Shown piece after piece: positions 56,426 through 59,707 of a DNA stretch of 64,000 bases; the stretch's first letter is position 1; every line of letters begins with the position of its first letter. This DNA is from Schwartzia succinivorans DSM 10502. GTDB lineage: Bacteria; Bacillota; Negativicutes; Selenomonadales; Selenomonadaceae. The notes under the pieces were generated by a model. It made no database searches and was not told the origin of the DNA. It saw only the letters and a list, made by a program, of their open reading frames with translations. The stretch spans positions 434,001-498,000 of the forward strand of contig NZ_FQUG01000002.1 in assembly GCF_900129225.1 (NCBI RefSeq), given 5' to 3'. The position numbers and the translations under genes are program-made.

Positions 56426-57736
56426 ATGAAAAAGACTCTCGTATCCGCACTGACGACTGCACTCGTAGTCGGCGCTGCATCCACAACTTTTGCAGCAGCT
56501 AATCCGTTCGAGGATGTTGCTGCAGACCATTGGGCTTATGATGCTGTTGCTCAGCTCGCTGCTGACGGCGTCATCGAAGGCTATGGCGATGGCACATATC
56601 GTGGCGACCAGGAAATCACTCGTTATGAGATGGCTCAGATGGTTGCTCGCGCTATGGCAAAGAGCGGCGTTTCCGCAGCTGACAAGGCTATGATCGACAA
56701 ACTCGCTGCTGAGTTCGCTGATGAGCTGAACGCTCTTGGTGTCCGCGTTGCTGCTCTCGAGAAGAAAGTCGACAACGTTAAATGGACGGGCCGTGTACGT
56801 TATCGTTATATCAACAAACGTGAAGAGAACAAGGCTAACGATCCGCACAAGAATACGAACCAGGTTCTTCTCCGTCTCGAGCCGACCATGCAGATTAACA
56901 AGCATTGGGTAGGTAAAGCTCGTATCGACTATGGCCAGTCTGACAACATGGACTCTGCAAAGAACGATACGAAAGCAACGGTTGACCGTATCTATGTTGT
57001 TGGTACATATGGCAACACACAGATTAACCTCGGTAAATTCCCCGAGCAGACACAGGCTGACTACGGTATGATTTTCGACTATCGTATGGCCGGTGGTAAG
57101 GTTGTATTCGGTAAAGACATCAAGGTTGGCCTCGCTGCTGGTCGTTTGAACCTTAACGATGCTAAAGGATTTGGTGTCTGGGGTCGTAAAGCAGACGGTA
57201 CGACTACTCCGGTTGCTGATGATGAGGTAACAGCAAGCGTCCTGAATGTTGAAGTTTACAATGACCGCGCTAAGAAATTCACATGGGGCGTTGGCTACAC
57301 CCAGGTTGCTAACAAACAGGATTTCCGTGACAAGAATCCGCGTATCTGGAATGTAGGTCTCGGCTACAAGTTCACACCGACCTTCAACGTTACGGCTGCT
57401 TACGCTCGCAACACGCATGCATTCGAGGGTACGGAGAGCAAGAATAAGACATCTTACAACATTCAGCTCAACTATAAGGGCGCAAAGGCTTCCCAGAAGG
57501 GTTCCTTCGGTCTCTTCCTCGGATATCGTCACCTTGGCAACCTCTCTACGGTTCGTTCCACATACTCCGAGAACGGCGGCATTGAGGCTGGACAGAAGGG
57601 CTTCGAGGTAGGTGCTTCCTACACCTTCGATAAGAACATCGTTGGTAAAGCTCAGTACTTCTGGGGCAAGAAGATTGCAATTGATGACAACAACAAAGTC
57701 CATGCACTTTGGACAGAGCTTTCCTTCCTGTTCTAA
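56426..57736 (+). CDS. SLH-domain outer membrane porin (OmpM type)
   Basis: The 436-residue protein has a signal peptide cleaved after AASTTFA (residue 23) and one SLH domain (residues about 26-75: FEDVAADHWAYDAVAQLAAD, GDGTYRGDQEITRYEMAQM). A short coiled coil (ALGVRVAALEKKVDNVKW) precedes a beta-barrel porin domain ending in the aromatic WTELSFLF. In Negativicutes such proteins tether the outer membrane to modified peptidoglycan and act as porins. The AAGGAGGAG ribosome site and the strongly GCT-biased alanine codons suggest high expression. Monocistronic. Confidence 0.92.
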   Translation: MKKTLVSALTTALVVGAASTTFAAANPFEDVAADHWAYDAVAQLAADGVIEGYGDGTYRGDQEITRYEMAQMVARAMAKSGVSAADKAMIDKLAAEFADELNALGVRVAALEKKVDNVKWTGRVRYRYINKREENKANDPHKNTNQVLLRLEPTMQINKHWVGKARIDYGQSDNMDSAKNDTKATVDRIYVVGTYGNTQINLGKFPEQTQADYGMIFDYRMAGGKVVFGKDIKVGLAAGRLNLNDAKGFGVWGRKADGTTTPVADDEVTASVLNVEVYNDRAKKFTWGVGYTQVANKQDFRDKNPRIWNVGLGYKFTPTFNVTAAYARNTHAFEGTESKNKTSYNIQLNYKGAKASQKGSFGLFLGYRHLGNLSTVRSTYSENGGIEAGQKGFEVGASYTFDKNIVGKAQYFWGKKIAIDDNNKVHALWTELSFLF

Positions 57737-57786: not shown

Positions 57787-57815
57787 AAAGCCTCGGCGAA
57801 AGCCGGGGCTTTTTT
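57787..57815 (+). terminator. Terminator after the SLH porin gene
   Basis: AAAGCCTCGGC-GAAA-GCCGGGGCTTT stem-loop with a T-run. An almost identical terminator lies at 58436-58464, beyond the two-gene cassette. Confidence 0.92.
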
Positions 57816-57849
57816 GTGCGCTTTTTTGTTTTTCCATTTTTTTATCTAC

Positions 57850-57878
57850 TTGCAACACAACATGGTATTATATAAAAT
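57850..57878 (+). promoter_or_regulatory. Candidate promoter of the DUF4160-DUF2442 pair
   Basis: TTGCAA (57850-57855), 17-base spacer, TAAAAT (57873-57878), in AT-rich sequence shortly before the GTG start. Confidence 0.5.
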
Positions 57879-57901
57879 ATAAATAGAGGAGATGAAGCGC
57901 T

Positions 57902-58156
57902 GTGCCAGAAATAACCAGGTTCTACGGAATTATAATAAAGATGTTTTTCAAACCTAAAGAACATGAACCAAGTCATATCCATGCTCTCTATGGTGAATAT
58001 ATAGGTGAGTTTAATATATTGACATGCGAAATGATACAAGGAGATCTTCCACCTAAGGCACAGGAATTAGTGACTGAATGGTTGCATACCTATCAAGATG
58101 AACTGCAAAAAATGTGGGAGACACAGCTTATCCATAAACTTCCGCCGTTGAAATAG
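57902..58156 (+). CDS. DUF4160 domain protein
   Basis: The 84-residue protein matches DUF4160: the opening PEITRFYGIIIKMFF, then EHEPSHIHALYGEYIGEFNI with two histidines, and a helical C-terminus (AQELVTEWLHTYQDELQKMW). DUF4160 genes are commonly paired with DUF2442 genes in varied genomes, a pattern suggestive of toxin-antitoxin or small regulatory modules. No activity is established to my knowledge. GTG start behind AGAGGAG. The base composition is visibly more AT-rich than the neighbours. Confidence 0.8.
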   Translation: MPEITRFYGIIIKMFFKPKEHEPSHIHALYGEYIGEFNILTCEMIQGDLPPKAQELVTEWLHTYQDELQKMWETQLIHKLPPLK

Positions 58157-58168
58157 GAGGTGTCTATA

Positions 58169-58417
58169 ATGATTCCACGTATTAAGCATATTGAACCGCG
58201 TGCTGATTATATCCTGCACGTTATATTCGATGACGGCAAAAGTGTTCTTTACGACGTAAAAGACGATATCTGCACACTTCCAACCTACCGCAGCCTAATG
58301 ACTGAACAAGGACTTTTTCAAAATTTTCAGGTTGATGAAAGCCGTACCTGCGTGTATTGGAATGACGAGATAGATTTACCAAGCGATACCATATACGAAT
58401 ATGGTATACAGTGCTGA
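58169..58417 (+). CDS. DUF2442 domain protein
   Basis: The 82-residue protein fits DUF2442: IEPRADYILHVIFDDGKSVLYDVK, then LFQNFQVDESRTCVYWNDEIDLPSDTIYE. ATG 58169 lies 8 bases after a perfect AGGAGG; an in-frame GTG at 58160 overlaps that site. It is encoded right after the DUF4160 gene as a pair and closed by a terminator that copies the porin terminator. DNA or partner-protein binding as an antitoxin-like component is an inference only. Confidence 0.8.
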   Translation: MIPRIKHIEPRADYILHVIFDDGKSVLYDVKDDICTLPTYRSLMTEQGLFQNFQVDESRTCVYWNDEIDLPSDTIYEYGIQC

Positions 58418-58435
58418 CGCCTATTTTGTATCCAT

Positions 58436-58464
58436 AAAGCCTCGGTATATACCGGGGCTTTTTT
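58436..58464 (+). terminator. Terminator after the DUF2442 gene
   Basis: AAAGCCTCGGTA-TAT-ACCGGGGCTTT stem-loop with a T-run. Stem and tail equal the porin terminator at 57787 except at the loop. Confidence 0.92.
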
Positions 58465-58508
58465 ATGTCCATTTTCAGCCATTCGCCCCAATTTTTTGTC
58501 TATTGGAA

Positions 58509-58537
58509 TTGACATGATAATCAATTCGTTTTATGAT
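58509..58537 (+). promoter_or_regulatory. Promoter of dprA
   Basis: Perfect TTGACA (58509-58514), 17-base spacer, TATGAT (58532-58537). Direct repeats ATGATAAT at 58514 and 58533 overlap it. Confidence 0.75.
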
Positions 58538-58600
58538 AATGAACTATCAAGAAGCATTGCAGAATAGATGCTATATAATAGAAGGAAACGACAAAATATT

Positions 58601-59707
58601 ATGGAGAGATTTTATCTCGCGGCACTGCTGGCAGTGCCTAAGCTGAAACAAAACACGGTGCGGAGGCTTCTCGGCAGCATGAAAAGTGCCGAGGCGGTCT
58701 GGAAGGCTCCAATGAAGGAGCTTGCGACCTTCATGACAGAGAATGAGCAGACAGCTCTTATGAATTTCAGAAATAAGAAGGCAGGTCTTCCCGAAAAGAT
58801 TGCCAATGATGTAGAGGCTAGAGGGATAAAGGTTTATACAGAGGAATCTTCGGAATATCCTTCGATTCTTAAGGAGATTGCGCAGCCTCCGATGATTCTT
58901 TTCTGCAGAGGAACGCTTGTCTCCGATGTTCAGCGCATAGCTATGGTGGGCTCGCGCAAGGCAACGGCCTACGGGCGGCACGCGGCAGAGGAGCTTTCGG
59001 CTGAGCTTGCCGCTTCAGGGCTTACTGTTGTAAGCGGTGCAGCCCGTGGTATAGACACCTTTTCACATAAGGGAGCAATGAAAACAGGGCGGACTGTTGC
59101 GGTTCTTGGCTGTGGAATTGATGTTACTTATCCTCCTGAGAATGAAGAGCTCCTTTGTGAAATCGCTGAGAATGGAGCGGTGATTTCTGAGTATCCGCCG
59201 GGAACACCACCAAACCAGGGCTTTTTCCCTGCGAGAAATCGCATTATCAGCGGACTTTCAATGGGCACGGTGGTGGTTGAGGCGGCTGAGCACAGCGGCT
59301 CTCTTATAACGGCAGAGATGGCTCTTTCCGAGGGACGGGACGTTTTTGCTGTTCCGGGAAGTATTTATTCTCCCATGAGCGCAGGGACGAACAGGCTTAT
59401 TCAGCAGGGAGCGAAGCTGGTTCGTTCGGGGCGGGATGTTCTTTCTGAGTACCCTGCGTTTTCGGCAGCACCTGAAGGAAAAACAAGCTATGCGGAGGAG
59501 GGCCTTCCCCAAGGGCTTTCTCACGATGAAAAGAAAATATATGAGCTGCTTTCGCATGATGAGGCGAGGACAGCCGATGAAATTATATACGCTCTGCACG
59601 GCAGCGGCGCGGCGAATGTCGCTTTTCTGCTTTTGCAGATGGAGCTGCGCGGTCTTGTAGAGGAAGATGAAAATCACGCATACACCCGCAGGATAAAGGA
59701 GGCATAA
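58601..59707 (+). CDS. dprA: DNA-processing protein DprA (Smf)
   Basis: It loads RecA on incoming single-stranded DNA during transformation. The 368-residue protein has an N-terminal SAM-like part. The Rossmann-like DprA core shows MVGSRKATAYGRHAAEEL, VVSGAARGIDTFSHKGA, FPARNRIISGLSMGTVVVEA and AVPGSIYSPMSAGTNRLI. A C-terminal winged helix ends the protein (about 300-368). ATG 58601 is chosen by family length; ATG 58568 has no ribosome site. It overlaps topA at 59707. Confidence 0.95.
   Translation: MERFYLAALLAVPKLKQNTVRRLLGSMKSAEAVWKAPMKELATFMTENEQTALMNFRNKKAGLPEKIANDVEARGIKVYTEESSEYPSILKEIAQPPMILFCRGTLVSDVQRIAMVGSRKATAYGRHAAEELSAELAASGLTVVSGAARGIDTFSHKGAMKTGRTVAVLGCGIDVTYPPENEELLCEIAENGAVISEYPPGTPPNQGFFPARNRIISGLSMGTVVVEAAEHSGSLITAEMALSEGRDVFAVPGSIYSPMSAGTNRLIQQGAKLVRSGRDVLSEYPAFSAAPEGKTSYAEEGLPQGLSHDEKKIYELLSHDEARTADEIIYALHGSGAANVAFLLLQMELRGLVEEDENHAYTRRIKEA

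Follow-up and report, generated by a model that had tools for sequence, protein, structure and literature searches.

A DhiTA-like toxin-antitoxin gene pair between twin terminators in Schwartzia succinivorans, and repeat-flanked dhiTA loci in other genomes

Introduction

The domain pair DUF4160/DUF2442 corresponds to dhiTA of Dickeya dadantii, in which the toxin gene comes first and the two genes are co-transcribed (PMC8198452). DhiT is reported to inhibit the growth of Dickeya and Escherichia coli, no inhibition is observed when DhiA is co-expressed, and the DhiT-DhiA complex represses the promoter. Dickeya dhiTA gave no gain in plasmid maintenance in E. coli, where only ccdAB2 did (PMC8198452). 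For the pair on a Thermus plasmid, transformants are reported without the first gene and none without the second; the pair raised plasmid persistence in Thermus, whereas in E. coli these plasmids were stable and no effect of the genes was noted (PMC12724237).

Several kinds of small insertions are relevant for comparison. Restriction-modification systems insert with a long, variable target duplication of about 100 bp (Nobusato 2000 and Furuta 2010, as cited in PMC3874152). In four alignments covering E. coli, S. aureus, and S. pyogenes, 10-18% of the small variable segments have flanking direct repeats, of which 66-94% are under 30 bp (PMC2884548). Chromosomal toxin-antitoxin modules have been described as small genomic islets that lie between genes (PMC7232551).

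Here, a 64,000-nucleotide stretch of the genome of Schwartzia succinivorans DSM 10502 (the window) is analyzed. An earlier note had proposed that a DUF4160/DUF2442 cassette in this stretch was inserted by recombination at a terminator. With a probability of roughly 60%, a DhiTA-type module entered downstream of an ompM-like gene and came to be flanked on either side by the terminator of that gene or a homeologous copy.

The dhiTA-like gene pair

The pair lies on the forward strand between an ompM-like gene (56426..57736, +; S-layer homology domain, outer-membrane porin-like) on the left and dprA (58568..59707, +; TIGR00732 with 250.5 bits, cut-off 191.15) on the right. The dhiT-like toxin gene (57902..58156, +) encodes 84 aa from a GTG start and matches DUF4160 (PF13711) with 66.9 bits against a cut-off of 23. 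The dhiA-like antitoxin gene (58169..58417, +) encodes 82 aa from an ATG start, located 12 nt past the dhiT stop codon and preceded by AGGAGG, and matches DUF2442 (PF10387) with 34.5 bits against a cut-off of 23.9. The G+C content of the pair is 39%, compared with 49% for the window. The description of two small AT-rich genes of a recurrent pair type, given in the earlier note, is confirmed.

The same domains, the toxin-first order, and the close spacing are shared with DhiTA of Dickeya dadantii 3937. Unlike in Dickeya, the genes are separated by a gap of 12 nt instead of overlapping by 3, and the pair is located between twin terminators in a different class of bacteria. The window DhiT scores 85.4 bits against NF048015 (toxin_DhiT), under the NCBIfam cut-off of 100, and it is therefore classed as DhiTA-like and not as an equivalog of the Dickeya protein. 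By analogy with the domain pair tested as dhiTA in Dickeya (PMC8198452) and in the Thermus plasmid (PMC12724237), the assignment of the window pair to the known toxin-antitoxin type DhiTA is supported, in agreement with the earlier suggestion of a toxin-antitoxin-like function. As a pair, these genes are already known and ordinary.

Among 23 aligned DhiT sequences including that of the window, F7, G9, I12, H21, H25, H27, Y30, G47, P50, W60, and W72 are invariant. The AlphaFold2 model of DhiT (pLDDT 93.9) has no clear structural match: Foldseek reached E 0.59 at best, and the top VIA-align result had Z 4.0 with rmsd 3.7 over 75. No mechanism is therefore readable from the structure. The PDB sequence search returned no match for DhiT at E up to 1, and the PADLOC search no match at E up to 1. 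It may be guessed that DhiT is a translation- or RNA-directed toxin acting via the invariant H21/H25/H27 cluster. The DhiA model fits about residues 5-85 of NE0471 (PDB 2auw) with Z 10.8 and rmsd 2.2 over 80 aligned residues. Seven weak PDB sequence matches for DhiA, all to phosphotyrosine phosphatases (E 0.19-0.48), were taken as chance.

A second DUF4160 gene is present in the same genome (L004:1468-1743, −; 55.6 bits). It follows rather than precedes its 94-aa partner, which has no Pfam family match. It is possible that these two genes are a variant of the pair with reversed order and another antitoxin.

Twin hairpins flanking the pair

The left terminator (57787..57815, +), AAAGCCTCGG CGAAAG CCGGGGCTTTTTT, has a 12-bp stem, a GAAA loop, and T6. 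The right terminator (58436..58464, +), AAAGCCTCGG TATATA CCGGGGCTTTTTT, has an 11-bp stem and an ATAT loop. Direct reading of the sequences reveals 24 identical positions out of 29: the 5' arm (10 nt) and the 3' arm with T tail (13 nt) are the same in both, and the differences are confined to the central six bases, comprising the innermost pair and the loop, where five of six differ. This confirms the statement of the earlier note that stem and tail are the same and the loop regions differ. The left hairpin ends 86 bases before dhiT, and the right one begins 18 bases after the dhiA stop. Only the two small genes are present between the hairpins, and the insert contains no transposase or integrase. 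In an alignment of the two flanks, the shared sequence ends at about 29 bp, with no homology outside the hairpins.

An OmpM paralogue from another genus (G014; L105) ends with a hairpin having the same arms and a similar tail, from which it follows that the left hairpin is probably the terminator of ompM.

The motif GCCTCGG-N(3,10)-CCGGGGC-TTTTT has exactly two matches in the genome of 2,658,431 bases, which are the two hairpins, and relaxing the stem to GCCNCGG/CCGNGGC adds no site in the whole genome. The stem followed by at least four T is present in 25 of 189 family genomes (own included), nearly always as a single copy; two copies were seen only in the genome of the window and in G185, where they are on separate contigs. 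In 464 kb of the own genome, both arms are common to 2-4 of 210-528 terminator-like hairpin pairs, depending on which of four settings is used and counting the window pair; among the 3-5 same-strand pairs within 2 kb, the window pair alone shares both arms. Taken alone, this comparison of hairpin pairs gives a modest margin over chance. The likeness of the two hairpins exceeds chance, though the window by itself would not settle the question.

The most serious competitor of the insertion reading is convergence, namely that GCC-rich stems are a recurrent terminator type in the family and dhiA merely has one. The recurrence of the stem in 25 of 189 genomes with varied loops, the nearly complete difference between the two loops in the window, the end of homology at the hairpins, and the arm sharing between hairpins of different dhiTA loci (7/3820 pairs) are all in line with it. 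Against this, the only two matches in 2.66 Mb are these two hairpins, even with relaxed stems; a T-G wobble pair that could change freely is identical in both; and twin hairpins recur at six other dhiTA loci, several within longer repeats. Convergence is considered unlikely, at somewhat under one chance in four.

The loops also count against the insertion reading: if the terminator had been duplicated recently, they should agree. The difference is compatible with drift under selection on the stem, and also with separate parentage of the two repeats, the host having supplied one and the incoming DNA the other.

The ompM-dprA interval in related genomes

Sequences upstream of dprA were compared between the window and 21 other genomes, consisting of 20 family genomes and the congener G001. 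The stretches from the family genomes are 453 to 3462 bases long, three of them at most 1300. In these 21 stretches, no tblastn match to OmpM, DhiT, or DhiA was obtained; the window, used as a positive control, gave all three. DhiT is also absent from the rest of G001, the sole congener compared, as far as its 63% complete draft extends. An empty site, in which ompM adjoins dprA without dhiTA, was not found among the 20 family genomes and G001. In the comparison of the interval suggested in the earlier note, dhiTA is thus lacking from all 21 stretches, and ompM is not beside dprA in them.

In G001, homology to the window upstream of dprA starts at 58491 (58491..58567, +), and an unrelated terminator immediately precedes it. 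The conserved part includes a strong promoter-like site before dprA (58509-58537, +; TTGACA-17-TATGAT, 11/12). A second conserved stretch runs from a 3-hydroxyisobutyrate dehydrogenase-like gene into the promoter region of ompM, as far as the G001 contig reaches. By eye, a hairpin-rich stretch is present in G001 (L006:1-480) immediately before dprA, in the position that dhiTA occupies in the window.

The lack of dhiTA from the upstream-of-dprA stretches of relatives indicates that the pair is accessory at this locus. The inserted, accessory nature claimed in the earlier note is further supported by the spread of DhiT across genera and phyla and by the low G+C content. The pattern named in the earlier note as refuting recent insertion, in which all relatives carry the pair at this locus with unrelated terminators, was not seen. 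That the insertion was recent, another element of the earlier note, is doubtful: only one of the six central bases agrees between the hairpins, and the closest dhiTA DNA from other loci has 75% identity.

Distribution and mobility of dhiTA

DhiT relatives were found from 67 of 189 family genomes. The nearest ones, with 89% protein identity, belong to genus g17 and include that of G071, whose DprA is 54% identical; DprA identity to six g17 genomes is 51-55%. Genus g29 is closer by DprA (59-60%), yet its DhiT is only 77% identical. The nearest g17 copies of dhiTA show 75% DNA identity, and thus the exchange was not recent.

Over the best 80 of 342 relatives in named genomes, DhiT identity ranges from 89 to 69%, and the copies in other phyla are 69-80% identical to the window DhiT. 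These best 80 include Selenomonas, Lachnospiraceae, Oscillospiraceae, Eggerthellaceae, Bacteroidales, Treponema, and one Alphaproteobacterium; many of the named relatives are metagenome-assembled, so that single placements may be wrong. The DhiT tree mixes phyla and places the window close to genus g17. It is poorly resolved, being built on few columns and leaving 29 of its 72 inner branches open, and was used only for these two points. DhiT homologues were also found from 54 IMG/VR loci, 29 plasmid records, and 3 phage records.

DhiA is encoded directly after DhiT in 154 of 164 loci, as detected with a DhiA profile built from family loci that belong to the 164. Seven of the ten loci without DhiA lack any candidate ORF, and four of these seven lie at a contig end; at another, L063, the wrong ORF was chosen, as a DhiA-like one is present there. 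In a comparison of 21 loci, shared flanks were confined to members of one genus, apart from downstream flanks common to g17 and g9. The dhiTA copies therefore sit at many places, and the pair is mobile.

For the following analyses, the 154 loci with DhiA, of which 150 had both flanks in the first comparison, were reduced to a non-redundant set by removing near-identical dhiT (154 to 135) and then short flanks (to 131). The near-identity filter removed the plain duplicates L169, L195, and L264, and also two strong-repeat loci, L245 (70 bp) and L219 (26 bp).

The earlier note had assigned the pair its own promoter. The candidate (57850..57878, +; TTGCAA-17-TAAAAT) agrees with the consensus at 9/12 positions, in a scan whose yield is at chance level. 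Across the region, 10 terminator-like sites were found against 4.6 expected and 6 promoter-like sites against 5.7 expected; in view of these counts, single scan matches are not taken as proof. DNA homology between the window module and L036, L037, and L045 starts at 57865. A TATAAT-like box is present at -70..-15 in 93/131 dhiTA loci, compared with 25/125 stretches at -270..-215 and with 54/131 shuffled -70..-15 stretches. This excess over upstream and shuffled sequences makes it likely, though not proven, that a promoter travels with the pair.

Repeats flanking other dhiTA loci

To measure flank duplication, 320 bases before dhiT (-350 to -30) were searched against 350 bases after dhiA with an ungapped repeat score. 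As controls, 410 mechanical ORFs in the same loci, some sharing one repeat, were treated likewise. A repeat score of at least 24 was observed in 12/131 non-redundant dhiTA loci and 6/410 control ORFs (Fisher p 1.3e-4). Flank duplication is more frequent around dhiTA than around the other ORFs of these loci. The window repeat scores 14, a level reached by 15/131 dhiTA loci and 9/410 control ORFs. At 119/131 loci no long repeat is present, and thus repeat flanking is not obligatory; close relatives of the window module (L036, L038, and L041-L044) are without a long repeat and score 7-9.

The repeats in the 12 strongest loci are 30 to 132 bp long. In L231 and L218, from two Muribaculaceae genomes, the repeat consists of the last codons and the terminator of a CoA-transferase gene, and in L047 it consists of the last codons of trpB. 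In L189, L293, L205, L056, L215, and L263, as in the window, it is essentially a hairpin. The repeats of L193, L040, and L234 are neither a gene end nor a hairpin. A search for an empty L040 site in 22 genomes of that genus gave a match in 14; the target is a multicopy gene region, and no empty site could be read from it. The right copy starts 0-33 nt past the dhiA stop in 11 of the 12 loci and 78 nt past it in L040. The right copy being so near, the moving unit is hardly more than the two genes and a leader.

Hairpins are present on both sides in 34 of the 131 loci, and in seven of these, the window included, both 7-nt arms are common to left and right. Hairpin pairs taken across loci share both arms in 7/3820 cases, which corresponds to 0.06 expected against 7 observed. 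The loops differ between left and right in all seven twin-hairpin loci. The right gene-end copy in L231 differs from the left by three changes at third codon positions, which, on this reading of the alignment, favors parentage from another lineage. In the duplicated terminator of L231, the loop looks nearly inverted between copies (GGTGGAT and ACCCACC), with stems unchanged.

In the light of these loci, the earlier proposal of insertion at a terminator is supported in kind, with long repeats at 12/131 loci and twin hairpins at seven, and is not proven for the window itself.

A tandem duplication of ompM, in which the terminators are relics and dhiTA replaced or displaced the second copy, is improbable. 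OmpM-like genes are indeed multicopy, with 5 matches in this genome and as many as 10 per genome among 14 others, and sometimes tandem in the family, for example in G023 C26 and G035 C11. No ompM-like ORF is present between the hairpins, however; the terminators of the tandem copies in G023 are by eye unlike each other, and the repeats that can be named at other dhiTA loci are from trpB or a CoA-transferase gene. Least probable of all is a decayed larger mobile element (prophage, integrative element, or integron) that brought the pair, for although DhiT homologues are known from IMG/VR, plasmid, and phage records, the window has just 86 and 18 bases between the genes and the hairpins, neighboring genes with full-length family matches, and no tRNA gene, and the right repeat adjoins the dhiA stop within 33 nt in 11/12 long-repeat loci.

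Other genes at the same sites

In two cases, a different gene occupies the corresponding site of a sister genome. The dhiTA of G051 (L056) and a Zeta_toxin-family gene of its sister G030 (L301:2266-3064; 33.8 bits, cut-off 22.3) occupy the same terminator site. A 75-aa ORF that belongs to no known family precedes the Zeta_toxin-family gene, and the G030 insert is flanked by a 101-bp repeat with copies 98% identical. The site downstream of trpB contains dhiTA in G029 and, in G050, an unrelated gene for 147 aa (L304:953-1396) with no Pfam or NCBIfam match. The twin hairpins in G050 have the same 3' arm, a one-base difference in the 5' arm, and different loops. Among HicAB loci of the family, counted at 28 of 30 HicA loci, 3/28 have repeats of the same strength; two of the three are from one genus, and one repeat is terminator-like by eye. 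The HicAB and Zeta_toxin cases indicate that the twin-flank pattern is not confined to DhiTA.

Proposed route of insertion

The preferred reading, insertion of a DhiTA-type module downstream of ompM, can be set out as four steps, of which the first, through relatives, and the second are well supported. The DUF4160 protein would be a toxin silenced by the DUF2442 antitoxin, with the complex repressing the promoter. The pair would move across genera and phyla as two genes with a short leader, without a recombinase of its own. Insertion would then leave the module flanked by direct repeats derived from the target, in many cases the end of a gene or the terminator behind it, a step supported by recurrence at other loci. 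The simplest route would be recombination between the corresponding host sequence and an incoming molecule that bears the module and a copy of a terminator or gene end, either by a single crossover of a circle or by a homology-assisted join. The last step is the weakest and is inferred: recombination between the repeats should delete the segment, and antitoxin addiction would select against cells that lose it. The twin flanks would then last long enough for the loops to diverge, the arms being preserved by selection for termination. On this route, the module would integrate through recombination with a matching gene end or terminator and would be retained between the repeats via addiction. As to addiction, the available accounts point in opposite directions: the Dickeya pair, without plasmid stabilization in E. 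coli, speaks against it (PMC8198452), as does the lack of a noted effect of the Thermus genes in E. coli, and plasmid persistence in Thermus speaks for it (PMC12724237).

Comparison with known insertions and implications

The closest parallel is the long target duplication of restriction-modification systems, which likewise concerns addiction-type genes placed without a recombinase between target-derived direct repeats. It differs in that the modules here are toxin-antitoxin pairs, the repeats are 30-132 bp (12 strongest loci) and often a terminator, and the loops differ between copies. As a possible target duplication, the window has the 29-bp twin hairpin, unique in its genome, and 12 other dhiTA loci have clear repeats of 30-132 bp; where an empty site might have been met, other genes are present in the sister genomes G030 and G050.

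Like the small variable segments of PMC2884548, the dhiTA module is a small accessory segment that is repeat-flanked in some cases. Repeats also flank such segments, and the pattern is therefore not special to addiction modules. As differences, the repeats there are mostly under 30 bp, and the word "terminator" is absent from the text. The islets of PMC7232551 are also two-gene modules present in some strains and not in others, between conserved genes; unlike for the window module, no duplicated terminators are described for them in the available part of that source.

The minimal mobile elements of Neisseria are alternative small cassettes at one site between conserved neighbors, exchanged through the flanking genes. 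The alternative small cassettes at one site resemble the present case.

In the part of the open-licence literature that was covered, no report of toxin-antitoxin modules between duplicated terminators was recognized, which is weak evidence of novelty. What is new is the variant with duplicated terminators and not the gene pair. As one case of a toxin-antitoxin insertion with flanking repeats, which proved countable in relatives, the locus is of real interest.

More generally, and only tentatively, chromosomal toxin-antitoxin modules might be terminator-bounded cassettes that excise and integrate, or swap, at duplicated host terminators and gene ends without a recombinase, and are kept because their loss harms the cell; this is put at little better than one chance in four. 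If it were true, DhiTA, HicAB, and zeta-type modules would occupy shared terminator sites as alleles of one another. Type II toxin-antitoxin modules occur dispersed over chromosomes, often without visible mobility genes, and the route of their arrival is an old question. Duplicated terminators or gene ends, together with a different gene at the sister site, provide a concrete footprint that can be counted in any set of genomes and tested in the laboratory, and would link toxin-antitoxin modules to the long target duplications of restriction-modification systems, the other class of addiction genes.
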